Assembly: GCA_013820875.1 (NCBI GenBank)
Contig: JACDHS010000018.1
Location: 1-49,960, forward strand
DNA: 49,960 nucleotides
Origin: Verrucomicrobiota bacterium
Lineage (GTDB): Bacteria > Verrucomicrobiota > Verrucomicrobiia > Limisphaerales > JACDHS01
Reading direction: 5' to 3'
Both the position numbers and the translations under genes were made by a program. Numbering within the stretch: the first letter of the stretch is position 1; every line of letters begins with the position of its first letter. The notes beneath the pieces are model-generated. The model searched no databases, was not told the DNA's origin, and worked only from the letters and a program-made list of their open reading frames with translations. Below, piece by piece: positions 25,608-40,486 of this stretch.

Positions 25608-28600
25608 ATGTCAAAACGATTTCTTCCTCCCTCGAAACCGTCGGCCGGTATTTTTTCAATCTCACTGCGGCGTTTGCGCTCAAACTTCGGCATGGCGACC
25701 ATGTTATCTGTGCTTGTTTGCGCAGGCGCATCGGACGCACCAAGTCAACAGCAACGCGCACTGGGGCTCGACGTCTCCGCATGGCAGGGCAACATTTCGC
25801 AGACCACCTGGAATAACATCCTGAATGTTGAGAATCGCCAGTTCGTTTTTCTTCGCTCCAGTCGCGGGGGAACCACCGGCTATTACAACCAGAGCGACGC
25901 CAGCAACTCGCAGGGGCTTAATACTCTTTCTCAGCGCTACGACGATCCTTATTTCGTGCAGAACATCAACCGCGCCACCACCGCGGGCATTTTGAGCGGA
26001 TCGTATCATTTCTCCCGGCCGGACATTATTGAAACAACGCTGAACTCCGATGGCATTGCCAACACAGGCGCGGATGAAGCGGATCACATGATCGAAATGG
26101 CCGGTGCCTGGATGCGTCCGGGTTACCTGTTGCCGGTGCATGACTTGGAGGCTGGTCTGAGCCAAAGGAGTTCAAGCCAGCTCTCACAGTTCTGTGTGGA
26201 TTTCTCCGACCGCGTGTACCAGGTAATGGGCATCCGCCCATTACTTTACATCAATCAGAGCTATGCCAATTACGTCAACTCGACGCTACCGCCAGTGCAT
26301 CCAGAGTTCTGGATTGCGCGCTATGCGAATCAAACAGACCCTGATTCTATTGACGTGCAGAATGGGCATCCGCCACCATCCCCTTCTACAGCGAACGTTT
26401 ACGGCAAGTGGAATCCGAACCACACGGTTGCCAATCCTTATCCTGACGGGCACCCGTGGACAATTTGGCAGTACGCCAGCACCGTCCGATTGCAGAGCTT
26501 CAACAACGGCAGCAGCAATCTCGACGGCAACGTGGCGCACGGCGGCACCGAATTCATCAAGGACTTACTTGTCCCGGCAGTTTGGATGAATGACAGCAGC
26601 GGCCAATGGACCACACAATTCAACTGGAACAGCGGGCAAACCCCGGTCGCGCCGGTCACCGGCCCAGGACAGGTAGCACCGATTGGAATACAAACTTTGC
26701 CGACTCCGCGCCTGCCGACGATGAACGACACTGTTGTCCTTGACCGCCCTAATGCCGACATCACTGTGACACTTGCCTCCGGCGCGCAAAATATCCGCAA
26801 ACTCTACGTCCGCGAGAGTCTCGCTATCACCGGTGGCTCGCTTAACATTAACTACGTGCCGTCCTGGGATTCGACTCCGATTTCCGCACAGTTCTCAGCC
26901 CCGGTCACACTTGGCGGCGCGGCCTCGGTAAGCGTCCACACCTTGCAGGTCGATGCCGCGCGAACATTTACCGTTGGCGGTGGCAGCACTCTTCAGTTCA
27001 GCGGAATCAACCTGATGCCGGGCAGCACGCCGGCAAAGATCACCCTGAACGGAAATGTGAATTTCGAAGCTTTGTCGAATGGCACGAACACCATTTCAAA
27101 CGGATCCGGTGCGGGCAACTCGGGCAGGATTGATCTCAGTGGCGGAAATCGCACCATTGGCATCGCAGGTGGTGCGGATTTATCGGTTGCCGTTCCCATC
27201 GAGAATGGCGCGATCACCAAGAACGGCATTGGAACAATGCGCGTCACCAGCGCCAACACCTACAGCGGCGGAACGACTGTCTCTGGCGGAAAACTTTTTG
27301 TAAACAACACCAGCGGCTCGGGCACGGGCAGCGGCGGGGTGACGGTGAGCGGCGGAATTCTCGGGGGGACTGGGACGATCTCAGGGGCAACCGTCGTCAG
27401 CAGCGGAGGAACAGTTGCACCGGGAACCAGCATCGGCACACTGACGGTCGGCAGTTCCACCTGGGCAGGCAACGGCAGCTACGAATGGGAAATCAAAGAC
27501 GTTTCCGCCGGTGACGGCATCGGCTGGGATAAACTCATGGTAAACGGCACGCTCGATGTGACCGCGACACCTGCTTCCAAGTTCGCTATCGATGTCACTT
27601 CCCTGACGCAATCGGATGCCCGGGGCCAGGTTTATAACTTTAATAATGCACAGTCTTATTCCTGGGTTATTGCCGAGGCGTCCGGCGGCATTTTGAATTT
27701 CGCGCCGGAAAAATTTCAGATCGTCACAGCTAATTTCGATAACAGTCTCGGCAGTGGCATTTTCACCATCACTCAGAGTGGCAACACGATTCGGCTCAAC
27801 TTCGGACCCGCTGGCCCTCCGGTCATCATGACAGAGCCACAAAGCCAAAGCGTTGCGCTGAACAGCGACGCCACATTTTCTGTCGCTGTTTCCGGAGCTG
27901 CTCCGCTGTTTTACCAATGGCGTTTTGAAGGAACGAACGTATTGCTGGCGACGGCGAGCATTTACACCCGTTCGAATGTTCAACTGAGCGATGCCGGTGG
28001 TTATTCCGTTGTGGCCTGGAATGCCCTGGGAAGCGCCACCAGCGGTGTGGCCAACCTGACAGTCATTTTACCGCCGTCCATTAATTCCCAGCCGGCGAGC
28101 ATCACCAACAACACCGGCACGACCGCCATCTTTTCGGTAGATACATCGGGAACGAGCCCTTCACACCAATGGCGAATGAACGGCAACGTGTTGAACAACG
28201 GCGGCAATGTGTCCGGCGCAACATCGCCGACGCTCACCCTTTCTTCTGTCTCCGCATTGGACGAAGCTGGCTACTCGGTGGTTGTCAGCAACAGCGCCGG
28301 GTCTGTCACAAGCGCCGTCGCCACACTGACAGTGGCGCAACCGCCAACCCTTTTGACGCAACCACAATCGCAAACTCGCTCGGCTGGCGAGAACGCTGCC
28401 TTCAGTATTGTGGCAAGCGGTTTCCAGCCGATGTCTTTTCAATGGCGCTGGAACGGTGACCCGATTGCAGGGGCCACGGATTCCACCTACACGCGTTCTT
28501 CCGTGCAGCTATCGGACGCGGGCAATTATTCCGTTGTGATCAGTAATTCCGTCGGAACTGTGACCAGTTCGAATGGAGGGCTCGCCGTGATTCCAACAGA

Positions 28601-31427
28601 ACCGTATGCAACGATTACGAACATCTGGAACATCCGCGCCGATTCACGTGCCTACGTGACGGCAGGCCACACCGAGCGGGGCATCGCGATCAATCCGTTC
28701 ACCGGACATGTTCTCCTGGCCAGCCGTTCCGCGCAGGTTGCCGGCAGCCTGGGCATCTTCATCCTGGACGGCGAGACTGGCGCTGAACTGGGCGCCATGA
28801 ACGTTGCCGCAATCAACAACACTGCGTTTTTCAAATTGAGCAAGATTGGGGTCGCGGAAGATGGCGCAATCTACGCCGCGAACATGACCACATCCTCAGC
28901 GGTTAACGACTTTTTCATCTATCGTTGGGCGGATGAATCCGCGGCTCCGACGATTGCATACTCCGGCAAGCCCGACGCTGGCGTCACGCTTCGCTGGGGC
29001 GATTCCCTTGCGATTCGAGGCGGCGGCACGAACACCCAAATCATGGTGTCAGGATCGGGCGCAACAACGAATATCGCCGTCTTCACGACGAGCAATGGTC
29101 TCTCGTTCCAGGTCGCAAAGCTGACCGCGTCTCCCGCCGTTAATCCGGGCGAATTTGCCCAGGGCCTCACTTTTGGAACGGGCGACAACTTTTTCAGCAA
29201 GCACGCAACCCACAGCTCTAATGTTGTAAAACAATTCTCACTCAACCTCGGAGCGAACTCTGCGACGCAGACCGCATCCGCGCCAATGGACGACAATGTG
29301 ATCTCCATGCGACTGTTGACCCAACAGAGCCTGCTCTGCACGGTGCTTGATGACAACTCAACAACCAACTCCGGCCACCAGGTTCGCCTCTATGATGTCG
29401 CGAACTTCTCCTCGCCTGTGCTCGTCTCGAATTTCTTTTTCCTGCCGATCGCCAATGGAACCAACAGTCCAAATCTCAATCGCGCCGGGCATGTGGACAC
29501 CGACGGCACCCGGATCGTCGCGCTCGACACGCAGAATGGAGTGGTCGCTTTGAAGCTGATTTTCGGTGGCCCGCCCACCCTGTCCAGCCATCCTGCCAAT
29601 CTACTGGTCAAGGTCGGCTCCAATGCGACTTTTGCAGTTGAGGCAATCGGCGTCGGTCTTCATTACCAATGGCTTTTCGGAGGTAATCCCATTCTGAATG
29701 CAACGAATTCATCCTTCACCATTCTCAACGTGCAGTCGATTAACGCTGGTAATTACTCGGTGGAAGTCAGCAACGCCGCCGGAGCAGTCGTAAGTTCCAA
29801 CGCTTTGTTGACCGTCAGCACCGACCAGACCGCTCCGACCATAGCCATCACTTACCCCGCCTCGAAACAACGTCTCATCGAAATGGTTGATGTAACTAAT
29901 GGAGTGGTTGTGGTTCGCGGAACCACATCGGACAACGTTGGTGCGACGCGCGTTGAATATCAGTTCAATGGCGGTTCCTGGTTGACGGCAACCGAGGCGC
30001 TGAACTGGTCGGCAACTGTGAACATGGTTCCCGGCGAGAACACCATCACCGTGCGCGCCTTTGATGCGGTGAACAATGCGTCGGCGCCCTTGTCACGCAC
30101 GTTCACCTACGTGACTTATTCCCTGCTCTCCGCGGAGATCCTTGGCGGAGGAGTGCTTTCGCCAGACCTTGACAATCAGTCGCTCGAAAACGCGAAGAGC
30201 TATCGCATGACAGCCTTGCCCTTGAGCGTGGACTGGGTATTCACCAACTGGACCCGGATTTCCGGCGGCACGACCAATGTTGTTTCCAGCAACGCGGTGC
30301 TGAATTTTCTAATGGAATCCAACCTGGTGCTGCACGCCAATTTCATCACCAACCCATTCGTGCGCGCGGCGGGGCTCTACCACGGGTTGTTCTATTCGAG
30401 CAATGGCGTGGCGCATGACAGTTCTGGCTTCTTCAAGATAAAGGTGACAGCAAAGCTTGGTTATAGCGCCAAATTGCTTCTGGATGGGAACGCCGTTTCC
30501 TTTAGTGGAAAATTGTCGTTGCCAGGCACCGCTGCCAGGGAGGTTCCGAGGACGAAGTTTGGCAAAGGACCATTGCAAGTGGAGCTGATCATGGATTTTG
30601 CCGATCACCTCGCGGGCCAGGTATCTGCAAGCAACTGGACGGCGCAGTTGAACGGCGATCGTTCTGTATGGAGCATCGACCCCGGCCAGCAGGCGGTGAC
30701 CTTCAGCAATCTCTACACGATGGCATTGCCGGGGTTGAGTAATCCGGTGAAAGGTCCGCCGGGAGCGAGTTATGGCGTTGTGATAGTGGACAGGCTTGGC
30801 AAGGTGCGGTTGAGTGGACGGGCGGCCGACCAGCATCCCATCCGGCAGAGCACCAAAATTTCAAAAACAGGCCAGTGGCCGTTTTACGTTCCCATGTACG
30901 TGGAGAAAAGGGCCGTGAATATCAATGGCGTCAACAAGACTAACAGGGAATTCCAGGGATCAATGCTTGGCTGGATTGACTTCGCCACAAATCAGCCCGC
31001 CGAAAAGACAACACTGGCCCCGCTCGGCGACGTGAGCTGGATCAAGACCGGCTGGACCAACACCATATATGCCGGCGGATTCAGCAATGTGAGCGCCAGT
31101 ATCGGTTCATGGTATGCGCCACCCGTTTCAGGCGTGAGAGTATTGAACCTCATCGACGGCCAACTTGTAATGAGCGAAGGCAATATGGGCATGGTCAAAA
31201 ATCTTATCACGTTGAAAAGCAATAATACCCTGACCGTGCGAACCACGCCTCTCCTTTCACTAAAGGGCGGCTTCAGCAAGACCGGGCAGATGCAGGGCGT
31301 TTTTGCGCATCCCGGATTGAATCATGCGCCCACTAAATACTTCGGCGTCGCGTTGCCGGATTACAATTACGCACTGGGCAGTTTCCTCGGAACCAATGAA
31401 AGCGGCGTAGTGAAACTGGAACCGTAA
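25608..31427 (+). CDS. Giant secreted GH25 muramidase with autotransporter, Ig and propeller-like modules
   Basis: 1939 residues. The signal peptide is preceded by a long basic region; the ATG at 25692 (MATMLSVLVCAGASDA) is an alternative start. Residues about 52-318 are a GH25 lysozyme domain: LGLDVSAWQG (Asp55), SYHFSRP, and HDLEAG (Asp179, Glu181), the catalytic carboxylates of the family, which cleaves MurNAc-GlcNAc bonds in peptidoglycan. About 320-735 is beta-helical and includes an autotransporter-associated repeat near 540 (NTYSGGTTVSGGKL). Ig modules are at about 737-822, 823-910 and 911-997, then a propeller-like domain at 998-1322 related to those of the two GHL10 proteins. Another Ig module (1320-1405), an Ig-type domain (1408-1503), an InlB-like repeat (1504-1585) and an unrecognised C-terminal domain (1583-1939) follow. 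Likely cell-surface or secreted, possibly predatory or for wall remodelling. Confidence 0.85.
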   Translation: MSKRFLPPSKPSAGIFSISLRRLRSNFGMATMLSVLVCAGASDAPSQQQRALGLDVSAWQGNISQTTWNNILNVENRQFVFLRSSRGGTTGYYNQSDASNSQGLNTLSQRYDDPYFVQNINRATTAGILSGSYHFSRPDIIETTLNSDGIANTGADEADHMIEMAGAWMRPGYLLPVHDLEAGLSQRSSSQLSQFCVDFSDRVYQVMGIRPLLYINQSYANYVNSTLPPVHPEFWIARYANQTDPDSIDVQNGHPPPSPSTANVYGKWNPNHTVANPYPDGHPWTIWQYASTVRLQSFNNGSSNLDGNVAHGGTEFIKDLLVPAVWMNDSSGQWTTQFNWNSGQTPVAPVTGPGQVAPIGIQTLPTPRLPTMNDTVVLDRPNADITVTLASGAQNIRKLYVRESLAITGGSLNINYVPSWDSTPISAQFSAPVTLGGAASVSVHTLQVDAARTFTVGGGSTLQFSGINLMPGSTPAKITLNGNVNFEALSNGTNTISNGSGAGNSGRIDLSGGNRTIGIAGGADLSVAVPIENGAITKNGIGTMRVTSANTYSGGTTVSGGKLFVNNTSGSGTGSGGVTVSGGILGGTGTISGATVVSSGGTVAPGTSIGTLTVGSSTWAGNGSYEWEIKDVSAGDGIGWDKLMVNGTLDVTATPASKFAIDVTSLTQSDARGQVYNFNNAQSYSWVIAEASGGILNFAPEKFQIVTANFDNSLGSGIFTITQSGNTIRLNFGPAGPPVIMTEPQSQSVALNSDATFSVAVSGAAPLFYQWRFEGTNVLLATASIYTRSNVQLSDAGGYSVVAWNALGSATSGVANLTVILPPSINSQPASITNNTGTTAIFSVDTSGTSPSHQWRMNGNVLNNGGNVSGATSPTLTLSSVSALDEAGYSVVVSNSAGSVTSAVATLTVAQPPTLLTQPQSQTRSAGENAAFSIVASGFQPMSFQWRWNGDPIAGATDSTYTRSSVQLSDAGNYSVVISNSVGTVTSSNGGLAVIPTEPYATITNIWNIRADSRAYVTAGHTERGIAINPFTGHVLLASRSAQVAGSLGIFILDGETGAELGAMNVAAINNTAFFKLSKIGVAEDGAIYAANMTTSSAVNDFFIYRWADESAAPTIAYSGKPDAGVTLRWGDSLAIRGGGTNTQIMVSGSGATTNIAVFTTSNGLSFQVAKLTASPAVNPGEFAQGLTFGTGDNFFSKHATHSSNVVKQFSLNLGANSATQTASAPMDDNVISMRLLTQQSLLCTVLDDNSTTNSGHQVRLYDVANFSSPVLVSNFFFLPIANGTNSPNLNRAGHVDTDGTRIVALDTQNGVVALKLIFGGPPTLSSHPANLLVKVGSNATFAVEAIGVGLHYQWLFGGNPILNATNSSFTILNVQSINAGNYSVEVSNAAGAVVSSNALLTVSTDQTAPTIAITYPASKQRLIEMVDVTNGVVVVRGTTSDNVGATRVEYQFNGGSWLTATEALNWSATVNMVPGENTITVRAFDAVNNASAPLSRTFTYVTYSLLSAEILGGGVLSPDLDNQSLENAKSYRMTALPLSVDWVFTNWTRISGGTTNVVSSNAVLNFLMESNLVLHANFITNPFVRAAGLYHGLFYSSNGVAHDSSGFFKIKVTAKLGYSAKLLLDGNAVSFSGKLSLPGTAAREVPRTKFGKGPLQVELIMDFADHLAGQVSASNWTAQLNGDRSVWSIDPGQQAVTFSNLYTMALPGLSNPVKGPPGASYGVVIVDRLGKVRLSGRAADQHPIRQSTKISKTGQWPFYVPMYVEKRAVNINGVNKTNREFQGSMLGWIDFATNQPAEKTTLAPLGDVSWIKTGWTNTIYAGGFSNVSASIGSWYAPPVSGVRVLNLIDGQLVMSEGNMGMVKNLITLKSNNTLTVRTTPLLSLKGGFSKTGQMQGVFAHPGLNHAPTKYFGVALPDYNYALGSFLGTNESGVVKLEP

Positions 31428-31775: not shown

Positions 31776-31868
31776 TCCGAACGTTCTGGATCAGTGATCC
31801 CGCGGCGACGATGTTCGGCATGCAACAGAAACGCGAACGCGGGGTTCACTGCATCCAGTTTGTTGAAC
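31776..31868 (-). other. attC site A (last site of the array)
   Basis: Ends are TCCGAAC (about 31776-31782) and GTTGAAC (31862-31868). The inner arms CTGGATCAGTGATCCC and its partner CTGCATCCAG/CGCGGGG pair imperfectly. It is related in sequence to sites G and K. It is the integron end farthest from attI. Confidence 0.75.
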
Positions 31869-32055
31869 GATGGAAGACGATCGGAAACCATGAAACCGCT
31901 CGAGCGGAAGATCGAAAGAACGGTTGCGCCATCCCGCACCGTCTTGTTGCCGCGATCGAAACATCCAAATGGTTGCCTGAAGAAACCTGCGCGCAAAAAC
32001 TTTCCGCAAACACCTGACCAACAGCCAAAGCGGCCCCGACGTCCGACGCGGCTAC
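31869..32055 (-). other. Cassette 14, no convincing gene
   Basis: Between attC sites A and B there is room for about 60 codons. A minus-strand frame from 32061 to 31846 (71 residues, MNVAASDVGAALAVG) is open but both ends run into the attC sites and it has no recognisable features. This may be a gene-less or decayed cassette. Confidence 0.4.
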
Positions 32056-32167
32056 ATTCAACCCTGGAATGCAAATACCCCGAAGTAAAGCGGGGCAAGT
32101 CTCTCTATTATCCCAACCCTCACTCCCACTTCACTTCAAATTATCTACATTCCCTTTTTTGTTAGGC
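32056..32167 (-). other. attC site B (degenerate)
   Basis: Ends are ATTCAAC (32056-32062) and GTTAGGC (32161-32167). GGAATG and CATTCC can pair near the ends, but the expected long stem with a bulged T is absent; an internal CCCCG/CGGGG hairpin lies at about 32078-32095. The right end and its position 5 bp from the cassette 13 stop are convincing; the left end is uncertain. Confidence 0.5.
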
Positions 32168-32171
32168 ATCG

Positions 32172-32582
32172 TCATCTCTTCACAAACTCAATCAAGGTGT
32201 CTCGGCGGAAGGCCTCGCCTCTCGTCAGGGTCTCAAACTTCCGTCGCTCTCTCCGCATGGGCGGCAACCGCTCGGAGGAAATGTCCCCGCTGTAACAATG
32301 AACGTAAACAAACATCCTCTCTGCGCACGATGCAATCTGCTGAAGAATCTCGGTGGCGTCGTCGCGAAAAACCAAACTGCCATCTTCTGCGGGTTGGTGC
32401 TTCCCGGCGCACGACAACGCGCACGAACAGCCTCCAGTCGTAAGAACCCATGTGGAAAAGTCTGGCGGCGAAGACTGTCTCAGTGTCGGGTGGTCGTGTG
32501 GCAATAGCTGAAAGCCACGGCGAGATAGGGGCGCACTATTATCTGCTCGCTCGGGCACTGCTATGGAGATGAAGTCGCACAT
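32172..32582 (-). CDS. Cassette 13 hypothetical protein
   Basis: 136 residues. The start codon lies 11 bp inside the cassette boundary (32593) and the stop 5 bp from the next attC, the usual cassette geometry. The C-terminal half looks protein-like and helical (ATEILQQIASCAERMFVYVH), while the first 40 residues are less convincing, so a later start is possible. There is no signal peptide or membrane segment. Family not recognised. Confidence 0.5.
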   Translation of the reverse strand: MCDFISIAVPERADNSAPLSRRGFQLLPHDHPTLRQSSPPDFSTWVLTTGGCSCALSCAGKHQPAEDGSLVFRDDATEILQQIASCAERMFVYVHCYSGDISSERLPPMRRERRKFETLTRGEAFRRDTLIEFVKR

Positions 32583-32592
32583 GGCGCGAGAT

Positions 32593-32694
32593 GCCTAACG
32601 GTTAGAACTCAGCCATACCGGGCCGAAAAACACAATCCACGAAAGCGGAACTGAAGGCGCGATCCCGGTATTGGCTGCAGTTTTTTTGTTCGGC
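32593..32694 (-). other. attC site C
   Basis: Ends are GCCTAAC (32593-32599) and GTTCGGC (32688-32694). Arms CAGCCATACCGGG (32610-32622) and CCCGGTATTGGCTG (32664-32677) pair perfectly apart from one extra T on the plus strand. Confidence 0.88.
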
Positions 32695-33129
32695 TCATAG
32701 CTTTCGCTCAAAATTATCCCCGTCCAGCAGCTGAATCTTCGTGTCACTCGGATCGAAATAGAGAAATCCGTTCGTGTCACTGCCGTATGACCATTCCAGC
32801 ATGAGATCACCCGCTCGGACCGTTGTGTCGTGCTCCGCGTTAGGAACTACCTCGTAGTTGCCGTCGCTCTTCGCTTTGCGGTCGAAAGACTCGACCACCC
32901 GACCGGTTCCGCTCTGAACCGTTTTCGATTGCGGCGCACGGTATCGCCAACGATACAAGGCCTCCTGGTCTGGTCCAAAGGTGGTGAACTGAATGATTGC
33001 AGCACCTCCTCGATCCGTCTCAACGCGAATAATGTCATTTGTTGTAAGACTTATCGGACTATCTTCAATCTTGGACGAACGCGAGCAGCCAACAACTAGC
33101 AACAAACAGATTGTGATGATTAGTCTCAT
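32695..33129 (-). CDS. Cassette 12 small lipoprotein
   Basis: 144 residues. The N-terminus MRLIITICLLLVVGC is a lipoprotein signal with lipobox VVGC (Cys15), so the product is probably anchored in a membrane facing the periplasm. The mature part (about 129 residues) is beta-rich and polar with YRWRYRAP and LYFDPSD segments; no family is recognised. The stop codon abuts the attC end. Its location in a mobile cassette suggests an accessory envelope function. Confidence 0.75.
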   Translation of the reverse strand: MRLIITICLLLVVGCSRSSKIEDSPISLTTNDIIRVETDRGGAAIIQFTTFGPDQEALYRWRYRAPQSKTVQSGTGRVVESFDRKAKSDGNYEVVPNAEHDTTVRAGDLMLEWSYGSDTNGFLYFDPSDTKIQLLDGDNFERKL

Positions 33130-33139
33130 AAATTGGAGT

Positions 33140-33235
33140 GCCGAACGATCAGCTCACCGACGGCGGCCCGTCGGTGGCTCTTGGATTTGAAATAGACGCC
33201 GATGGGCCGCCGTTCGGTGCAGCGCCGGGTTCGGC
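33140..33235 (-). other. attC site D
   Basis: Ends are GCCGAAC (33140-33146) and GTTCGGC (33229-33235). Arms CACCGACGGCGGCCC (33155-33169) and GGGCCGCCGTTCGGTG (33204-33219) pair with one bulged T. Nearly identical in plan to sites E and F. Confidence 0.9.
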
Positions 33236-33520
33236 TATCTTCAGTCTATGCTCAAGAGCAGCATCGATAATGTTGTCCTTCTCGTGTCCGTATTTGAGTG
33301 CTGAAGAAATGAACTCTCCGGAGCTCTCGCACGGCATCTCCTCGACACCATCCTCAAGCTCTAAATTGAAAATATCAACGCAGCAGCCGCATCCCTCATT
33401 GTCACTTATGCCGAGAACGCGTCCACGGTTTCGAGACAACCAGCCATAGAACGCTGCAACCTCATTTGGCTCATCGGCTGGCAGATCAATCGCAACCACG
33501 GCTATTCTACGAAGAGGCAT
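33149..33520 (-). CDS. Cassette 11 hypothetical protein with attC-encoded tail
   Basis: 123 residues. Residues 1-95 form a small acidic protein with a cysteine cluster (GCGCCVDIF, about 43-51) that could bind metal, and a conserved-looking start (MPLRRIAVVAIDLPADE). The last 28 residues (EPGAAPNGGP...DGPPSVS) are translated from attC site D, so they are probably not part of the folded domain. No signal peptide. Function unknown. Confidence 0.7.
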   Translation of the reverse strand: MPLRRIAVVAIDLPADEPNEVAAFYGWLSRNRGRVLGISDNEGCGCCVDIFNLELEDGVEEMPCESSGEFISSALKYGHEKDNIIDAALEHRLKIAEPGAAPNGGPSASISNPRATDGPPSVS

Positions 33521-33529
33521 AATGTCCAG

Positions 33530-33626
33530 GCCGAACGAATCAGCTCACCGATGGCGGCCCTCCGGGAGCATTCGGATTGTCAGTTGACGCCGCTGGGCCG
33601 CCATTCGGTGCAGCGCTTGGTTCGGC
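33530..33626 (-). other. attC site E
   Basis: Ends are GCCGAAC (33530-33536) and GTTCGGC (33620-33626). Arms CACCGATGGCGGCCC (33546-33560) and GGGCCGCCATTCGGTG (33595-33610) pair with one bulged T. Confidence 0.9.
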
Positions 33627-34157
33627 ACGAAAATCAGGTCGTCTCCAACTTCCGTTGATCCACTTACCGGGTTCAGTATTCCCCTTACGGCCTCCGAACT
33701 GGATAGCCTCAAACAAGTGATCATCAGCAAAAAAACACTCCCACCACCCGTCAATCCAGGCAATGACAAAACCACGCTGCTCCTCAACAAACTTGAAATG
33801 CGTTTCGTCGAGCCTGCCCCGAATATTGCCCCATCGCGAAATGAGTGAACCTATGGACTCTGGACGGCATGGAACGCCTGTCAGATACGTCCACTCATCC
33901 AAACCAAGATATGGGCGCACTTTCGCAAAATTCCCGGGGGGAATGACGACGGCGTCGGGGCCTCCGTAAGGGCGCAGGACATGGCGAGCAATAAAGTCGT
34001 CGAACTCATCGAACAGATTATCTGCCGCAATTGGTTTAAAGCGCAGCACATCCCATGGAGCTCCCTCGTAAAAGCACAGGTGCTCGTCAAAAGCTTTGGG
34101 GACAGTAACGAGAAGTTCATTCCAACTTTTGGCATCTGAGGCTAAAGAGCGCATCAA
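33540..34157 (-). CDS. Cassette 10 hypothetical protein with attC-encoded tail
   Basis: 205 residues. The body (about 1-178) is a soluble aromatic-rich protein (YGGPDAVVIPPGNFAKV; AWIDGWWECFFADD) without signal or membrane segments. The last 27 residues (EPSAAPNGGP...GGPPSVS) are translated attC site E. The start (MMRSLASDAKSWNELL) sits close to the preceding cassette boundary at 34164. Family not recognised. Confidence 0.7.
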   Translation of the reverse strand: MMRSLASDAKSWNELLVTVPKAFDEHLCFYEGAPWDVLRFKPIAADNLFDEFDDFIARHVLRPYGGPDAVVIPPGNFAKVRPYLGLDEWTYLTGVPCRPESIGSLISRWGNIRGRLDETHFKFVEEQRGFVIAWIDGWWECFFADDHLFEAIQFGGRKGNTEPGKWINGSWRRPDFRAEPSAAPNGGPAASTDNPNAPGGPPSVS

Positions 34158-34163
34158 TCGTGG

Positions 34164-34259
34164 GCCTAACGTTCAGCTCACCGATGGCGGCCCACCGAGA
34201 GCGTCGGGATTATCAACTGCCGCCGCTGGGCCGCCATTCGGTGCAGCGCCTGGTTCGAC
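34164..34259 (-). other. attC site F
   Basis: Ends are GCCTAAC (34164-34170) and GTTCGAC (34253-34259). Arms CACCGATGGCGGCCC (34179-34193) and GGGCCGCCATTCGGTG (34228-34243) pair with one bulged T. Confidence 0.9.
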
Positions 34260-34799
34260 TCGATACTCAACTAACTTCTCTCTTGGTCCTTTCGGTGGAT
34301 CGTAAATCTCAGCTAGCGCGCTGCCGCCCTCGAATCGCAGCGGCCATCTGCAGGGAGTCTCAAGGATGGCGGCGATCATCTCCGGGTAGTCCGGGTGCAG
34401 AAAGATCGTAGTATCCACAGATGTGTTCATCTGGCTCACCGCCGGATACCTGCTCAACAAAAGAAACCCTCGAAACCAATCATCATCCGCAAGACGGATC
34501 TTAAGCCGCTCGGGTACTGTAGTGCCACAGCGCTCGATCAATTTGATCATATTGGATACACGGTGGCTGGCTGTCCGGCAGTCATCGAGGCTCGCCCCAG
34601 AGCGGAGGGCAAGGGACTTGAACGCGAGCTCAATGCCAAGAGCGTAGAGGTGGTATCGAGGAAGGTCCCAACACCGCTCTTTGGCCATGAGCCCCAAGGC
34701 GGCAAATCGCACAGATGCGTGAGCGAAGTGGACTCCGTCCTGAACCTCTGGCGAAAGCGGTCCGTGTGCTTCTATGTCATTAAGGCAGATGTAAGGCAA
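34173..34799 (-). CDS. Cassette 9 hypothetical helical protein with attC-encoded tail
   Basis: 208 residues. The N-terminal half is helical (HFAHASVRFAALGLMAKE; YALGIELAFKSLALRSG followed by CRTASHRVSNMIKL), reminiscent of HEPN-like four-helix bundles with a charged R-x-x-x-x-H-R element (DDCRTASHRV); this is only a resemblance. Middle residues contain LADDDWFRGFLLLSRYP. The last 28 residues (EPGAAPNGGP...GGPPSVS) are translated attC site F. No signal peptide. If HEPN-like, a role as an RNase toxin or defence effector is possible but unproven. Confidence 0.68.
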   Translation of the reverse strand: MPYICLNDIEAHGPLSPEVQDGVHFAHASVRFAALGLMAKERCWDLPRYHLYALGIELAFKSLALRSGASLDDCRTASHRVSNMIKLIERCGTTVPERLKIRLADDDWFRGFLLLSRYPAVSQMNTSVDTTIFLHPDYPEMIAAILETPCRWPLRFEGGSALAEIYDPPKGPREKLVEYRVEPGAAPNGGPAAAVDNPDALGGPPSVS

Positions 34800-34815
34800 C
34801 GTGTCCTCCTGCTAC

Positions 34816-34908
34816 GTCGAACGTCCCGCATCACTGACCCCGCGCCAGTGATACTCAAATTGTAACCACAGCGCTATCGCGGGGTTCAGTGCATGTGGTT
34901 TGTTAGCG
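34816..34908 (-). other. attC site G
   Basis: Ends are about GTCGAAC (34816-34822) and GTTAGCG (34902-34908). CATCACTGACCCCGCG and CGCGGGGTTCAGTGCATG pair apart from an extra T and C. Nearly identical to site K. Confidence 0.85.
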
Positions 34909-35124
34909 TGACGGCGCATCAGAAGCAATTTGTAGCCACAAGAGGAGCAGAAAAGCCAGCACTCCTGAAGGCAATGCAATCAAAACAGACGACCAAGTCG
35001 GCAGATCACTGAAAACATGCAAGAAACCGAAACAGAGTCCGGCAAAAAGCAAACTGCTGCCAACAAACACCGACAGGAACACCCGATCCTTCCACATTGG
35101 TCTGCCTTGGTCGCTGGGTTTCAT
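34903..35124 (-). CDS. Cassette 8 small membrane protein
   Basis: 73 residues from the ATG at 35124 (MKPSDQGRPMWKDRVF); an in-frame start at 35175 would lie inside attC site H and is rejected. Two hydrophobic helices (FLSVFVGSSLLFAGLCFGFLH, written as family-neutral TM1, and VLIALPSGVLAFLLLLWL) give a hairpin membrane protein. The stop lies in the attC end. Function unknown. Confidence 0.68.
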   Translation of the reverse strand: MKPSDQGRPMWKDRVFLSVFVGSSLLFAGLCFGFLHVFSDLPTWSSVLIALPSGVLAFLLLLWLQIASDAPSR

Positions 35125-35129
35125 CTGAA

Positions 35130-35219
35130 CGCTAACGTCAGCGTGAGCCACCGCCGGCTTGTGACTCAAGATCAAAACAGAAAGCGCAATCGGCGGTTGG
35201 CTCGACGCTCTGGTTAAGT
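35130..35219 (-). other. attC site H
   Basis: Ends are CGCTAAC (35130-35136) and GTTAAGT (35213-35219). GAGCCACCGCCG and CGGCGGTTGGCTC pair with one bulged T. Nearly the same sequence as site N. Confidence 0.9.
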
Positions 35220-35800
35220 GCGTTCGTCATCCATCTCTCCACCATCTCATCGGATTGAAAGCTCAAGTCTCGATGCAGCCAATATCCACCATCGGAAAGT
35301 CGGATGAAAAGCCACCCGGCAGTGATTGTGGTGTCGTAAGCGGTATTAGTTCCGTATTTCCACGCGTAAGTATTCCATCCGACTCGCTCAAATTTCCCCT
35401 TCAACTCTGGCTGTAAACTGCCATGGAAATAAGTGATCTGCCCATCAGCGAATCTCAGAAATGCGCGCTCTTCGCATCCATGCGCCGTGAACGAGCCTAC
35501 ATAATTCCCACGGAGGGGACATGGCACCGCCAGCCTGAAAAGAATGAGCAGAACGGTGAGACCACTGAGTATGCGCCAATGTCTCGCCAGAAAACCGCGA
35601 GTAAAGCGAATCAGAAAGGGAAATACTCTCCTTGCGCCAATCAACGCACCAACGCTAGCTGTAGCTATCAGACCGAGCTGTATCCAATCATGTAGAATCG
35701 ACCAATCGTCGTATGCGAGTGAGAAACAAAGGCCAAGCAACATCCAACTTGGTATTATCGCCAGAAATGCCCACCGCCGGGGAATGTGCGGATCTTTCAT
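35138..35800 (-). CDS. Cassette 7 membrane protein with soluble C-terminal domain
   Basis: 220 residues. Three hydrophobic segments at about 10-29 (WAFLAIIPSWMLLGLCFSLA), 38-55 and 75-92 are likely membrane helices, followed by a beta-rich soluble domain (residues about 95-190; GSFTAHGCEERAFLRF). The tail after about 195 (SVEPTADCAFCFDLESQAGG) is translated attC site H. The start is 4 bp from the preceding attC boundary. Family not recognised. Confidence 0.72.
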   Translation of the reverse strand: MKDPHIPRRWAFLAIIPSWMLLGLCFSLAYDDWSILHDWIQLGLIATASVGALIGARRVFPFLIRFTRGFLARHWRILSGLTVLLILFRLAVPCPLRGNYVGSFTAHGCEERAFLRFADGQITYFHGSLQPELKGKFERVGWNTYAWKYGTNTAYDTTITAGWLFIRLSDGGYWLHRDLSFQSDEMVERWMTNALNQSVEPTADCAFCFDLESQAGGGSR

Positions 35801-35803
35801 AGC

Positions 35804-35896
35804 ACATAACGCCCCGGCTCAGGCAGGCCGGGCCAACGATGTTTGCTTGTCAACCAACGCGCGATCCCGGCCTTGCCTGCAGCCGGTTGGTTGGCA
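35804..35896 (-). other. attC site I
   Basis: Ends are about ACATAAC (35804-35810) and GTTGGCA (35890-35896). CAGGCAGGCCGGG and CCCGGCCTTGCCTG pair with one bulged T. Confidence 0.85.
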
Positions 35897-35903
35897 TCGG
35901 TTT

Positions 35904-36137
35904 TCATTGCTTTTTACGTTGCACGAGAACCAAATCCTCGTCATCAAATTTAGTGTAAAGTCTGCCAAACGTAGGCCCCGTCAGCATGACGCCCTCGCCT
36001 TCTTCCTGAAAGAAATCTTCCCAACCAGCGCTCTCCTTAGTGATTATGCTCTCGACCACTCCGTCCCACTTGCCGATGCGCACTACGTCGCCCTCGCAGA
36101 TCGCATCTCCCGAGCGGTATGCCGGTGCAGGCTTCAT
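35904..36137 (-). CDS. Cassette 6 small conserved-looking protein
   Basis: 77 residues, compact and without signal or membrane segments. Sequence features include GDVVRIGKWDGVVESII, then EGEGVMLTGPTFGRLY and DDEDLVLVQRK, suggesting a small beta-barrel fold with an SH3-like look. From memory, similar proteins recur in integron cassettes, but I cannot name a family. Start and stop sit neatly between the two attC sites. Function unknown. Confidence 0.72.
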   Translation of the reverse strand: MKPAPAYRSGDAICEGDVVRIGKWDGVVESIITKESAGWEDFFQEEGEGVMLTGPTFGRLYTKFDDEDLVLVQRKKQ

Positions 36138-36198
36138 GCCACGTCAGAGATCAGGGACGGGCGCGTTAGCGCCCGTTCCCTGCATCGAATTGTTGGCA
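36137..36198 (-). other. attC site J (short)
   Basis: Ends are about TGCCAC (36137-36142) and GTTGGCA (36192-36198). AGGGACGGGCGC and GCGCCCGTTCCCT pair with one bulged T around a GTTA loop. At about 62 bp this is the shortest site of the array, and it lost one base in its left end. Confidence 0.78.
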
Positions 36199-36677
36199 TC
36201 AGTTTCTGTCCTATGATTCGGCGGCCAGAGAAAGTGCAGCAATATGCCGCCCAGAAGGCCGGGCATCCCTGCCGCGAACAGATTCTGAGCTATGAACACA
36301 CGCTGATCGTGAGAGGTGATGCCATACGGTGTCGCATCGAAGGGCATTAGATACGAAGCCAAAGCCGCAAATACCGGAAAGAACCAGCTGCACACAACAC
36401 CGAGAAACACGAAACACGCTATGCGGGTAAAGACGTAACGCCACTGCCTCCGGCTTATCCACCATGACCCGAGGCATAATAGTCCGGCGGCGGGAATTGT
36501 AAAAGGGGCGACGAAGAACGGCGCAAACACCCAAAGCGGTATCGTGCCAGAGCTGCCGAACCAGAACGAACGATTGTCACCGCCGTTGAGCAACGCAAGG
36601 ATATACGAACCGATAACAGGGGCAGCCCCGCACGCCAGGGCAACCGTGATAATCACTCTTAAAACTTTATTCTTCAT
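36144..36677 (-). CDS. Cassette 5 four-helix membrane protein
   Basis: 177 residues from the ATG at 36677 (MKNKVLRVIITVALACG); an in-frame start at 36722 lies inside attC site K and is rejected. Four hydrophobic segments are visible: about 5-29, 45-68 (WVFAPFFVAPFTIPAAGLL), 78-104 (FTRIACFVFLGVVCSWFF) and 128-147. The tail (about 160-177) is encoded by attC site J. Integral membrane protein of unknown role. Confidence 0.72.
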   Translation of the reverse strand: MKNKVLRVIITVALACGAAPVIGSYILALLNGGDNRSFWFGSSGTIPLWVFAPFFVAPFTIPAAGLLCLGSWWISRRQWRYVFTRIACFVFLGVVCSWFFPVFAALASYLMPFDATPYGITSHDQRVFIAQNLFAAGMPGLLGGILLHFLWPPNHRTETDANNSMQGTGANAPVPDL

Positions 36678-36679
36678 TA

Positions 36680-36772
36680 TGCCAACGTCCCGCATCACTG
36701 ACCCCGCGCCAGTGATACTCAATTTGAAACCACAGCGCTATCGCGGGGTTCAGTGCATGCGGTTGGTTAGCC
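36680..36772 (-). other. attC site K
   Basis: Ends are TGCCAAC (36680-36686) and GTTAGCC (36766-36772). CATCACTGACCCCGCG and CGCGGGGTTCAGTGCATG pair with a bulged T. Nearly identical to site G, 1.9 kb away. Confidence 0.9.
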
Positions 36773-36779
36773 AGAGTCT

Positions 36780-37085
36780 TCATACTGGGTCGACGGGACT
36801 GACGTGATCACCCTCCAAGTCAGTTGGAGGGTGACGCAAATGGTGAATCAAACTCTCGGTAATGGCGCGAAACACCTCATCTCGATTCTTCCCGGTTTCT
36901 CCTGAAATGGCATCAGCGAGATGACACGCGGACTCCGCAAGTAAGCGTCCCCATTGGTCGGGTTCGTCGACCCAAACCCATGCGGCCAAAGAAATCTGAA
37001 GCTCCCCATCAACTATCCATCCGCGAATCATCTCTATGGAGTCTTCGTCAGATTCTGCGTCTGGAGGATGTCCCAATGGTCTCAT
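36780..37085 (-). CDS. Cassette 4 DUF5076-like protein
   Basis: 101 residues, cytoplasmic, acidic. The pattern EMIRGWIVDGELQISL, then WVDEPDQWGRLLAESACHLADAI and PPTDLEGD near the end matches, from memory, the DUF5076 family of small proteins found widely in alpha-proteobacteria and in integron cassettes. No biochemical function is known to me. The start is 22 bp from attC site L and the stop 7 bp from site K. Confidence 0.78.
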   Translation of the reverse strand: MRPLGHPPDAESDEDSIEMIRGWIVDGELQISLAAWVWVDEPDQWGRLLAESACHLADAISGETGKNRDEVFRAITESLIHHLRHPPTDLEGDHVSPVDPV

Positions 37086-37106
37086 ATTAGTTGACGTGCG
37101 ATTGCG

Positions 37107-37233
37107 GGCTAACGATCAGGTGAGGCACGGCTGCTGTAAGCGTCGTCTCGCCTGTAACGAAACTGTTATAAAACCCGAAAAGATACAATCTGCAAACGCG
37201 GAGCAGCCGTTGTCCTCCACCGTCTGGTTCGGC
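37107..37233 (-). other. attC site L (long)
   Basis: Ends are GGCTAAC (37107-37113) and GTTCGGC (37227-37233). GAGGCACGGCTGCT and AGCAGCCGTTGTCCTC pair with a bulged T. At 127 bp it is the longest site of the array. Confidence 0.85.
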
Positions 37234-37521
37234 CTACTCCACTCTGAAAACCTGCTCTTCATCCTGGCCTCGAAATCTCCGGATGACGCGAAAATGATCG
37301 GCGTCCTCCTTGAATGCTAACAGAAACTCCTCGTCTGCTTTCGCTTTGTCGGCAGCCCACGCAAGGGCAATGCGACGAATCTCCTTCTGCTGCTCGTCGG
37401 GCACACCCTCAAGGACTGCGATATGCCTCCGAGATGGCAGGCACAACGTGGGAAGGTATCCATCAAAACCGTCCCGCTCAATGATTCGCCGTGTGATGCT
37501 GGCAAAATCGTCAATGGTCAT
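37234..37521 (-). CDS. Cassette 3 hypothetical protein
   Basis: 95 residues from the ATG at 37521 (MTIDDFASITRRIIERDGF); the longer open frame to 37683 runs through attC site M, whose translation gives VQRTGASRF-like residues, and is rejected. A small alpha/beta protein (YLPTLCLPSRRHIAVLEGVP; DADHFRVIRRFRG) without signal peptide. Its stop abuts the end of attC site L. Family not recognised. Confidence 0.72.
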   Translation of the reverse strand: MTIDDFASITRRIIERDGFDGYLPTLCLPSRRHIAVLEGVPDEQQKEIRRIALAWAADKAKADEEFLLAFKEDADHFRVIRRFRGQDEEQVFRVE

Positions 37522-37526
37522 ACGCC

Positions 37527-37627
37527 GCCGAACGCTAAGGTCAGCGACGGGAGCCAGCCGACGATGACGTTCATATTTACTCTGAGCGAAACGGCTGGCT
37601 CCCGTTCGCTGGACCGCTTGGTTAGCC
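37527..37627 (-). other. attC site M
   Basis: Ends are GCCGAAC (37527-37533) and GTTAGCC (37621-37627). GACGGGAGCCAGCCG and CGGCTGGCTCCCGTTC pair perfectly apart from one bulged T. Confidence 0.9.
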
Positions 37628-37954
37628 ACCCACTGGGATGTAAATCGATTTGAATCCATAACCAATAATGTGCATGTCGCCAAAACGAACTAAAGAACGC
37701 CTCTTCGTACTAAGTAGCTTCGTTCCGAGCGGTAGAGGCGGTGCCTTTTCCACTCGCAGCTTACCAAATGAATCGGGCCAAACGCGAATCTCATCCGCTG
37801 CATCGCACCAAACGGAAAAATGGCGAATGCGTTTGGTCCGCAGATCCGTGCACAAGAAATATACGGTCACATGACCATCCCCTCCACGCTCGACTTGGAA
37901 CACTTCAGCCTTCGTTCGTGGCGAGACGTATCGTGTAAGGGCAGTGAGTGTCAT
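37622..37954 (-). CDS. Cassette 2 hypothetical protein
   Basis: 110 residues, beta-rich and basic (TVYFLCTDLRTKRIRHFSVW; DMHIIGYGFKSIYIPVGG), no signal or membrane segment. The stop codon (TAA on the minus strand) is formed inside the attC site M end at 37622-37624. The start is 4 bp from attC site N. Function unknown. Confidence 0.72.
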   Translation of the reverse strand: MTLTALTRYVSPRTKAEVFQVERGGDGHVTVYFLCTDLRTKRIRHFSVWCDAADEIRVWPDSFGKLRVEKAPPLPLGTKLLSTKRRSLVRFGDMHIIGYGFKSIYIPVGG

Positions 37955-37958
37955 AGCA

Positions 37959-38048
37959 GGCTAACGCCAGCGTGAGCCACCGCCGGCTAGCGACTCAAGA
38001 CAAAAAGAGACAACGCAACCGGCGGTTGGCTCGACGCTCTGGTTGGGC
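37959..38048 (-). other. attC site N (first site of the array)
   Basis: Ends are GGCTAAC (37959-37965) and GTTGGGC (38042-38048), both close to consensus. GAGCCACCGCCG and CGGCGGTTGGCTC pair with one bulged T. Nearly the same as site H. Confidence 0.92.
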
Positions 38049-38058
38049 GATGCGTCTG

Positions 38059-38328
38059 TCATATCGTCCTCTTGAATCTCTGCCATAACTCCGCAATAGC
38101 CGCGTGCTCAGGGCCAGCCAAGAACGTCTGCGCACAAAGCCGCTCGTGCTGCTCGATTCGAGCCAGAAGCTGACTCGACTCCGATCCTCGCACCACCAGT
38201 GCGAGCAGCACTGCCGCGTCAGCCAGATACATCTGATACCTTGGTCGGTCATCGGCATGGTGGGTGTGCGCCAAGCTCTCTGAGAGACAGATGACGTAGT
38301 CTGCTAGAGCTTTCAAATTGGAATCCAT
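38059..38328 (-). CDS. Cassette 1 hypothetical helical protein
   Basis: 89 residues from the ATG at 38328 (MDSNLKALADYVICLSES); an in-frame start at 38346 would lie in the attI junction and is less likely. It is entirely helical in appearance (YLADAAVLLALVVRG; IAELWQRFKR), soluble, without recognised motifs. As the attI-proximal cassette it would be the best expressed if a promoter lies in the intI region. Function unknown. Confidence 0.72.
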   Translation of the reverse strand: MDSNLKALADYVICLSESLAHTHHADDRPRYQMYLADAAVLLALVVRGSESSQLLARIEQHERLCAQTFLAGPEHAAIAELWQRFKRTI

Positions 38329-38340
38329 GTGCGCGAAGTC

Positions 38341-38366
38341 GCCCAACCATTGATTATCAGTTGGCT
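38341..38366. other. attI-like integration site
   Basis: GCCCAAC (38341-38347) and GTTGGCT (38360-38366) form an inverted pair of core-like half-sites 12 bp apart, immediately upstream of the first cassette and about 70 bp from the divergent intI start. This is the position and layout expected for attI; assignment rests on context. Confidence 0.65.
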
Positions 38367-38435
38367 TTGCCTTGATAACTTGATATTACTCGGCTTTTCA
38401 GGCAAGTGTCCCAGCAGGTTCATGAGCGGAATTAA

Positions 38436-38709
38436 ATGTTTATGGTCGAGCAAAGTCAAGGTCACTCCGGTGCAGTTTCAGAACCCAAACTGTTGGATCA
38501 AGTGCGCGCCAAAATGCGGTTGCTGCACTATTCCATTCACACGGAGCGGTCCTACATCGATTGGATCAGACGTTATGTTGCTTTTCACCGGATGAAGTCC
38601 CGGGACGACCTATTTCCCAGTGAACCCAAGGTCGAATCCTTTCTCAGTGATTTGGCGATCAATGGCAATGTTGCCCCGGCCACACAGAACCAGGCCATGA
38701 ATGCCCTGG
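38436..38709 (+). pseudogene. intI: Truncated integron integrase (N-terminal fragment)
   Basis: The first 91 codons encode the N-terminal SAM-like DNA-binding domain of an integron integrase: LLDQVRAKMRLLHYSIHTE, then YIDWIRRYVAFH and ESFLSDLAINGNVAPATQNQ (the NVAxSTQNQALNALL motif region of IntI). After NAL the frame continues in unrelated sequence and closes at 38882. The tyrosine recombinase catalytic domain (Arg, HxxR, Tyr) and the IntI-specific insertion are missing. The fragment is divergent from the cassettes and adjacent to attI, as in intact integrons. Family knowledge: IntI recombines attI with single-stranded attC sites. This copy cannot do so, so the array should be fixed in place. 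Confidence 0.85.
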
Positions 38710-38930
38710 TGTGTCCCACCAGATCCGGCAAAATGCCCGTTCTTTCACCTTCCATCCGTTCAAACTTCCGACTGCCTGGCGGACAAGGTAGCCGCGATAA
38801 GGGTGATGGTGTGTCGGTGTGGTGGGCGGACTATTGTCGCTTGTGCGAAAAGCGGTGCGTTTGGGTGGCGTCACTGAACTGAACGTTTGTTCATTCCTCC
38901 GGGAAACCTTCCAATCGGCAAAAATGCCCT
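38710..38930. other. Stretch between the intI break and the 41-bp array
   Basis: No gene is supported; open frames here are continuations from the intI fragment or the array. The sequence after the break does not resemble an integrase in any frame I read. The breakpoint at about 38709 marks a deletion or insertion junction. Confidence 0.5.
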
Positions 38931-39268
38931 CTCGGTTACGTTTACAGAGACAACTTTCCCCGCATTTCTCCCTCGGTTACGTTTACCGAGACAATTTTCC
39001 CCGCATTTCTCCCTCGGTTACGTTTACAGAGGCAACTTTCCCCGCATTTCTCTCTCGGTTACGTTTACCGAGACAACTTTCCCCGCATTTCTCTCTCGGT
39101 TACGTTTACAGAGACAATTTTCCGCGCATTTCCCTCTCGGTTACGTTTACAGAGGCAACTTTCCCCGCATTTCTCTCTCGGTTACGTTTACCGAGGCAAC
39201 TTTCCCCGCACTTCTCTCTCGGTTACGTTTACCGAGACGTAAAACGATCGTTTTGGGACTCGGTTACG
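38931..39268. repeat. Tandem array of 41-bp units
   Basis: The core CTCGGTTACG starts exactly every 41 bp at 38931, 38972, 39013, 39054, 39095, 39136, 39177, 39218 and 39259. Units 1-7 are nearly identical (core, TTTACCGAG or TTTACAGAG, then CAACTTTCCCCGCATTTC). Unit 8 keeps the first 22 bp and unit 9 only the first 10. In units 2, 4, 7 and 8, CTCGGT and ACCGAG can pair around TACGTTT; in the others the right arm is CAGAG. There are no spacers, so it is not CRISPR. Since 41 is not a multiple of three, open frames crossing it change frame each unit and are not believable genes. An inverted core, CGTAACCG, occurs at 39308-39315. Confidence 0.92.
39241..39254. repeat. Perfect 14-bp palindrome at the array end
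   Basis: AAAACGATCGTTTT is its own reverse complement. It replaces the second half of unit 8 of the 41-bp array. It could be a protein-binding site or a recombination scar. Confidence 0.7.
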
Positions 39269-39343
39269 CCGACGATGGGCATTTTTTCGGTTCAGGTGTT
39301 TTGTTCGCGTAACCGCTTCTCCATTAGCGACTATCAGCGCAGA
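39269..39343. other. Array end and sialidase 3' flank
   Basis: It holds the inverted core CGTAACCG (39308-39315) and an ATTAGCGGTTCACTGCGG-type dispersed repeat that supplies the end and stop of the sialidase gene. No gene is seen. Confidence 0.5.
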
Positions 39344-40486
39344 TTAGCGGTTCACTGCGGTTTTTAGGTTTAATGGGAACCGGGCAAATGTGATCTTCTC
39401 ATTTGCATGGGCTTCTCCAGTTTCGTACAGACAGGCGACATCCAGATTCGGCATCACAGCCAGGCAGGAATAAGCAGACCACCCGGGCTGAATTGTTCTC
39501 GCCACGAACCAACTCCGGCCTTCGTCTTCGCTCACGTGCAGAGTCAGGTTTTTGCGACGACTTTCGTGGGTGGGATTCGCGAATAGCAGGCGGCTGGCTT
39601 GTTTTTTACCAGGCCATGTATGACGGACGATGGTTCCCTGGCAAATGGGTTCCAATAAATCTTTCTTTAACTCCGGGCTCGACCAGGTCGCGCCGCCATC
39701 GCGACTGATGGACTGACTGCGGAAAACGCCCGGGATGGTGCGCATATTCATGAGCAACGCGCCATCTGCCAATTCGACGACCTGCGCCTCGGAGACACGG
39801 CCATGAACGGTACCGCCAATGTGCCAGCTTTTCCCATGGTCATCGCTGTAAACAACATGTGAACCGCCACGCGCTTTCGGGTCGTCGCTGTTGTGGCAGG
39901 CCGGAATCACCAAACGACCTTTGAACGGGCCGCGTTGCACCTGTATCCCAACGCCCGGACCAGCGGCATACCATCCCCATGATTCGAGTTTGGTGTTTTC
40001 GGTAACGTCCAATGGCTTCGACCATGTCTTGCCATCATCGTCACTTTTCGCAATCCAGACGGTGCGGGTCAGGAGTGACCCGGGGCGTTTCAGGATTTTC
40101 GGATCCACCTTGCCCGGATTATGATTCATGAACAGCCAAATGGTTCCGGTCTTTTGGTCCTGCACCGGAGTAGGATTGCCACAGGTATTGATGCCATCAT
40201 CCCAGATCACTTGCTGTTTGCTCCACGTCTTTCCACCATCCGTCGAGCGCTTCAGTAATAGATCGATATTGCCATTGTCGTGCCGGTCGTCTTTTCGGCC
40301 CTCGCAAAAAGCGAGCAACGTCTTTCGTTTCGTCAGAAGCAACGATGGAATGCGATAGGTATTGTAACCATCTTCGCCCCCTACAAAAACATCCTTTTGA
40401 AAAGCGCTTTCCCCTGCCCCTTTCCCGAGTGTGGAGAAAAACAGGTTTAACAACATGGCGAATGTGAGGAAACGGAGTGGATTCAT
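39344..40486 (-). CDS. Secreted sialidase (GH33-like), last gene of the operon
   Basis: 380 residues with a signal peptide (about 1-24). The conserved YRIP (44-47, Arg45 of the carboxylate-binding triad) is followed by five Asp-box repeats: STDGGKTW, SDDDGKTW, SDDHGKSW, SRDGGATW and SEDEGRSW. EGRKDD (62-67) contains the general-acid Asp region, EAQVVELADG the Glu that activates the nucleophile, and CLYETG the Tyr nucleophile. It fits the six-bladed sialidase fold that removes terminal sialic acid from glycans outside the cytoplasm. The start overlaps the transporter stop by 4 bp. The last residues (KTAVNR) are encoded by a dispersed repeat. A paralogue lies at 45538. Confidence 0.93.
   Translation of the reverse strand: MNPLRFLTFAMLLNLFFSTLGKGAGESAFQKDVFVGGEDGYNTYRIPSLLLTKRKTLLAFCEGRKDDRHDNGNIDLLLKRSTDGGKTWSKQQVIWDDGINTCGNPTPVQDQKTGTIWLFMNHNPGKVDPKILKRPGSLLTRTVWIAKSDDDGKTWSKPLDVTENTKLESWGWYAAGPGVGIQVQRGPFKGRLVIPACHNSDDPKARGGSHVVYSDDHGKSWHIGGTVHGRVSEAQVVELADGALLMNMRTIPGVFRSQSISRDGGATWSSPELKKDLLEPICQGTIVRHTWPGKKQASRLLFANPTHESRRKNLTLHVSEDEGRSWFVARTIQPGWSAYSCLAVMPNLDVACLYETGEAHANEKITFARFPLNLKTAVNR

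Follow-up and report, generated by a model that had tools for sequence, protein, structure and literature searches.

In published descriptions, an integron consists of a single intI, a single attI and a single array of cassettes (PMC8618304). The window analysed here, the whole stretch of 49,960 nucleotides from a contig (C220) of a Verrucomicrobiota genome, holds a cassette array beside an intI that is broken. How is such an array to be understood? We consider it rather probable that this attI-headed array of 13 attC sites, its intI cut after about 93 codons, is one among the docks of a multi-dock integron served in trans.

That the region is an integron array is settled. An Rfam search of the window found nothing, and the attC model was therefore built from the window itself: the covariance model R1 was made from 13 hand-delimited window sites, which it matches by construction. 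In a search of the 50-kb window, R1 returned 13 attC between 31776 and 38049 in a single orientation, with E values from 8e-19 to 3e-8. The remaining minus-strand matches are palindrome echoes of the same 13 sites, and the sole match outside the array has an E value of 0.56. The earlier note had expected a covariance model to find 12-14 attC on one strand, and 13 were found, with a model built from those sites. Their identity is independently backed by covariation in the stems (10 of 11 pairs, in the plus-strand alignment, with changes on both sides and pairing kept) and by about 95 further R1 sites elsewhere in the genome. On the bottom strand, all 13 form imperfect palindromes of 62-128 bp in which boxes are conserved and some bases stay unpaired; they end in GTTRRRY-like and RYYYAAC-like boxes, and one follows each of 13 ORFs. 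When the plus strand, which is the attC bottom strand, was folded as single-stranded DNA, z was about -2.7 or lower in 10 of the 13 sites; the three weaker folds gave -1.2, -1.7 and -2.1. The single unpaired T that had been read in nearly every stem is present, joined in most stems by a second unpaired base, the two making up the canonical pair of extrahelical bases.

Counted from the attI end, and all on the plus strand, the sites lie at 37959-38049 (attC 1, R1 score 65.9 bits), 37527-37628 (attC 2, 64.5 bits), 37107-37234 (attC 3, 54.9 bits), 36680-36773 (attC 4, 88 bits), 36138-36199 (attC 5, 43.1 bits; short, with one degenerate box and a fold z of -5.4), 35804-35897 (attC 6, 82.1 bits), 35130-35220 (attC 7, 55 bits), 34816-34909 (attC 8, 83 bits), 34164-34260 (attC 9, 81.5 bits), 33530-33627 (attC 10, 80.6 bits), 33140-33236 (attC 11, 79 bits) and 32593-32695 (attC 12, 71.7 bits). 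The last, thirteenth by R1, lies at 31776-31869 (73.4 bits), and its cassette lacks a convincing ORF. A candidate fourteenth site at 32055-32168 was dropped as a working site, having no fold (z -0.3) and no R1 match; comparison of fold and copies identifies 32056-32167 (plus strand) as a decayed palindromic attC, complete copies of which lie in contigs C27 and C217. About 10 further loci in the genome carry the distal flank (31865-32055, strand not assigned) as well, in copies whose ends vary and whose interior has deletions. A reading of the 300-bp distal segment as a retroelement, suggested by copies with one common and one differing end, was rejected: the full copies consist of a palindromic attC and a repeat-rich flank, with inner deletions.

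The cassette genes bear out what had been claimed for them from the letters: at least 13 cassettes (13 attC and 13 ORFs), genes on a single strand (13 of 13 on the minus strand) and mostly unknown products (one Pfam domain, DUF5076, among the 13 ORFs). They lie between 38347 and about 31776, in one orientation and with the ORFs near attC. Cassette 1 encodes 89 aa of no known family (38062-38328), cassette 2 encodes 110 aa (37625-37954), cassette 3 encodes 95 aa (37237-37521), and cassette 4 the DUF5076 protein of 101 aa (36783-37085, Pfam E 7e-21). The product of cassette 5 is membrane-like (177 aa, 36147-36677), its ORF extending into its attC; for that of cassette 6 (77 aa, 35907-36137), the second of the arrays on contig C9 holds a relative with 62% identity. 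These are followed by cassette 7 (220 aa, 35141-35800), cassette 8 (73 aa, membrane-like, 34906-35124), cassette 9 (208 aa, 34176-34799, with a TTG start and likewise extending into its attC), cassette 10 (204 aa, 33543-34154), cassette 11 (123 aa, 33152-33520), cassette 12 (144 aa with a lipoprotein-like start, 32698-33129) and cassette 13 (136 aa, 32175-32582). Searches of the cassette proteins with PADLOC and NCBIfam gave nothing beyond one chance-level match.

At the right end, an attI heads the array (38341-38404, minus strand, delimited by an alignment of 16 attI copies). Its last bases read ATGG^TTGGGC, the crossover G^TT at 38347-38345 being the start of the first cassette; it lies between this cassette and an intI fragment, and is homologous to attI sites that adjoin an intact intI. 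The fragment (38436-38715, plus strand) is the 5' part of the gene, about 93 codons, the remaining 240 or so being absent. It matches positions 1-72 of 315 in TIGR02249 (hmmscan E 2.7e-19), its best solved relative is IntI4 (PDB 2a3v), and it faces away from the cassettes, the usual arrangement in integrons. The ORF that begins with it (38436-38882, plus strand) loses similarity after MNALV. With 72 of 315 profile positions left, there is no functional intI beside the attI; it is settled that the integrase of this locus is broken. The earlier note, which identified the structure without any integrase, is thus wrong in this detail: the relic and the attI stand at the right end of the array, and the window holds a degraded integron rather than a bare cassette cluster.

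The fragment ends at an insertion (38717-39301) in which imperfect 22-bp inverted repeats (38717-38738 and 39277-39298) flank eight 41-bp tandem repeats. The insertion is common to contigs C69 and C56, and parts of it also occur elsewhere in the genome. The intI fragments of C220, C69 and C56 have an identical break point, and one break common to all three implies that the platform was copied after breakage. The attI and the insertion adjoining the fragment are almost identical in C220 and C69, and the two fragments differ by seven synonymous and two non-synonymous codons, all within codons 22-73; this looks like a patch converted from a diverged functional intI. The 41-bp repeats have a palindromic core (unit CTCGGTTACGTTTACCGAG, 38888-39240) and recur in C5, C25, C148, C12 and C37, where they abut attI or broken intI; a different 41-bp unit, of the TCTTCCAAAACATTTTGGAG type, adjoins the upstream side of group A attI sites. 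A further repeat of about 75 bp, TTAGCGACTATCAGCGCAGATTAGCGGTT, occupies 39300-39376 and has at least 30 dispersed copies in the genome.

On both sides, the array is flanked on this 50-kb MAG contig by ordinary chromosomal-type genes, which do not distinguish chromosome from plasmid. A 1939-aa protein with GH25 lysozyme-like and immunoglobulin-like domains and an autotransporter-type repeat is encoded at 25608-31427 (plus strand). At 39344-43059 (minus strand), a BNR sialidase-like gene adjoins a fused N-acetylneuraminate epimerase-like/sodium-solute symporter gene, and the pair is likely a unit for the use of sialic acid.

In loci of Desulfobacterota, Nitrospinia, Methylomonas and Verrucomicrobiae, the same attI core precedes intI by about 100 bp, and the IntI N-termini of these loci are 41-77% identical to the window fragment. 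The attI core and the IntI N-termini of these relatives thus allow the attI and the intI fragment to indicate, each independently, the same integron lineage. These integrons (L161-L197) contain the closest IntI relatives found; unlike the window, they keep, in the loci analysed, an intact intI beside one attI, and some also have orphan attI. Three genomes, Desulfobacteraceae SURF_7, Methylomonas koyamae and the SKS1.bin79 MAG, combine an intact intI and its attI with extra attI lacking intI, orphan here meaning that no intI lies within the fetched kilobases. The orphan attI-like loci are L297-L301 in SURF_7, L302-L303 in M. koyamae and L306 in SKS1.bin79. In two relatives of the window genome, G001 from the same family and G012 from the same order, attC arrays likewise adjoin several attI-like sites that have no intI next to them. 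In SURF_7, M. koyamae, SKS1.bin79 and G012, attC of fitting polarity adjoin four orphan attI; R1 is untuned to those genomes, so that their array content is underestimated. The coexistence of orphan attI with intact intI in three other genomes suggests, at the level of sequence, that orphan docks are not peculiar to one MAG.

We then have to ask how far the window array stands alone in its own genome, a 5.7-Mb MAG of 239 contigs with 2.2% contamination, in which contigs often end where arrays end; the counts come from genome searches and fetched stretches of this draft assembly. A whole-genome search with R1 gave 99 attC at E<=1, and 108 matches were accepted in 38 fetched stretches of the genome. 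In relatives from the order, the same search gave mostly 0-24 attC, and 47 in G001, a comparison that favours the own genome from which R1 was derived. With a relaxed attI core pattern, the 446 kb of own-genome DNA that had been fetched gave 20 sites, and Markov-shuffled DNA gave 0, 0, 0, 1 and 0. Each of the 20 precedes a first attC of matching polarity, at a distance of 249-737 bp. Sixteen copies align and are conserved up to ...ATGG^TT and divergent beyond; as read from the alignment, conservation that halts at G^TT is what marks attI sites that have taken up different cassettes. The sites divide into several subtypes, and some of the loci share the distal flank found in the window (31865-32055). 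Contig C69 carries three docks (at 1558, 40800 and 89498) and C9 two (at 23502 and 63332), and several arrays on single contigs mean that these docks are different loci of one genome. There is good support for about 20 arrays headed by attI in this genome, the main caveat being that the genome is a MAG. The earlier note was right about the integron array, but its term sedentary chromosomal integron implies a single working locus; here the integrase beside the array is broken, and about 20 such arrays exist.

A search for the integron integrase family detected no intact intI in the assembly. It yielded the N-terminal fragments of C220, C69 and C56, a C-terminal scrap in C237 (1589-1675, with an attI-headed array about 9 kb away), two general tyrosine recombinases and some weak matches at chance level. 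The two full recombinases, on C127 and C198, were rejected as IntI; their similarity to the profile is confined to its general catalytic part, they have equivalents in G001, and they are taken, from these matches, as XerC/XerD-like. Among 293 genomes of the order, 92 have intI above the cut-off. For ten of the 20 attI, the assembly extends 2 kb or more on the intI side, and among these an intI fragment occurs only at C220 and C69 (position 1558), the other 8 showing no trace; several attI loci meet a contig end on the intI side, where intI could be hidden.

Evidence that cassettes have moved comes from cassette 4. The whole cassette (DUF5076 gene and attC) recurs with 98.4% identity in the second array of C69, and on both sides the homology begins and ends at G^TT. 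The attI of the two loci are only about 80% alike, which indicates that the cassette moved long after the loci had separated. This is movement by G^TT recombination, and past movement only; it involves the one cassette pair in common among 70 internal cassettes. Both loci lack an intact intI, although such movement needs IntI, and the pattern points to IntI having transferred cassettes between loci.

In the reading we prefer, the intI of this locus was severed after about 93 codons by the insertion, and IntI from elsewhere in the cell would have excised cassettes at attC and inserted them, in trans, at any attI dock. All 20 attI would be substrates of a single IntI, and the docks would have spread by the copying of attI with their repeat-rich flanks. 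The integrase, missing from the assembly, would once have served the docks in trans or may still do so; its intact gene may lie on a contig that the MAG lacks, or may have been lost, in which case the arrays would be frozen. We infer one IntI in trans from the common cassette, the conserved attI cores and the intact intI found alongside orphan attI elsewhere, and the sequence pattern fits several attI served in this way. Against this reading stand the lack of an intact IntI in the assembly, the single common cassette pair, the contig ends at which an intI could be hidden and the several attI subtypes. Given these subtypes, a part of the docks may go back to integrons that were acquired separately and not to copying; probably whole loci were copied and others acquired independently.

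The main rival is intI loss at many loci: several complete integrons would have been acquired or duplicated, and every intI later lost or broken, leaving fossil attI-headed arrays and no trans action. Published origins of CALINs are off-target insertion, intI loss and rearrangement (PMC8618304), and attI-bearing arrays without intI match these routes neatly only as intI loss at many loci. The truncated intI of C220, C69 and C56, the scrap in C237 and the differing attI subtypes are what such decay would leave, and the part of PMC12444791 drawn on here documents intI decay in Xanthomonas. We nevertheless find this explanation rather unlikely, as no trace of intI adjoins the attI in 8 of the 10 loci where the intI side is assembled for 2 kb or more, the three fragments share one break and so point to a platform copied after breaking, and three other genomes hold orphan attI alongside intact intI.

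Far less probable is an artefact of assembly or binning, in which arrays of several strains or species would be mixed in one MAG, or contigs misjoined. The 239 contigs, the 2.2% contamination and the many arrays that stop at contig ends could arouse this suspicion; contamination so low is, however, at odds with many genomes, the three attI-headed arrays on C69 and the two on C9 lie at different positions, and the related G001 and G012 also show several attI beside arrays. We give least credence of all to a plain CALIN, filled by a remote IntI inserting cassettes off-target at secondary sites with attI uninvolved. CALINs have been described as arising in this way (PMC8618304) and no complete intI is nearby, but the array is headed by a true attI, conserved to the crossover and homologous to attI beside intact intI.

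The proposed multi-dock integron resembles known systems in part. Like the sedentary chromosomal integrons of Vibrio and Xanthomonas, the window has an attI, cassettes in one orientation, foldable attC, a divergent intI and mostly unknown products; unlike them, its intI is truncated, and the genome has about 20 attI-headed arrays instead of one platform. With at least two attC and no nearby integrase (13 attC and an intI fragment only), it falls under the definition of a CALIN, and its 13 attC compare with a CALIN average of almost 6 (PMC9024848); a recognisable attI and an intI fragment at its head set it apart from that definition. Xanthomonas integrons, in the portion of PMC12444791 considered here, also combine a broken intI with several array loci per genome; the CALINs described in that portion lie away from the intI/ilvD locus, come without mention of an attI and are far fewer than the loci here. 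A search of open-access papers turned up no account of genomes in which attI is present in several or duplicated copies.

More tentatively, and with somewhat less confidence than for the window itself, one may think of a distributed integron in which one intI, unlinked or lost, serves about 20 attI docks, orphan docks being general and overlooked in several phyla. They would be overlooked because standard searches target only intI and attC, and tools seeking these alone would miss the attI-headed state. If this is true, part of the material filed as CALIN is attI-headed, and if there are many docks per genome, cassettes could be inserted, and might also be expressed, in many places on the chromosome simultaneously.
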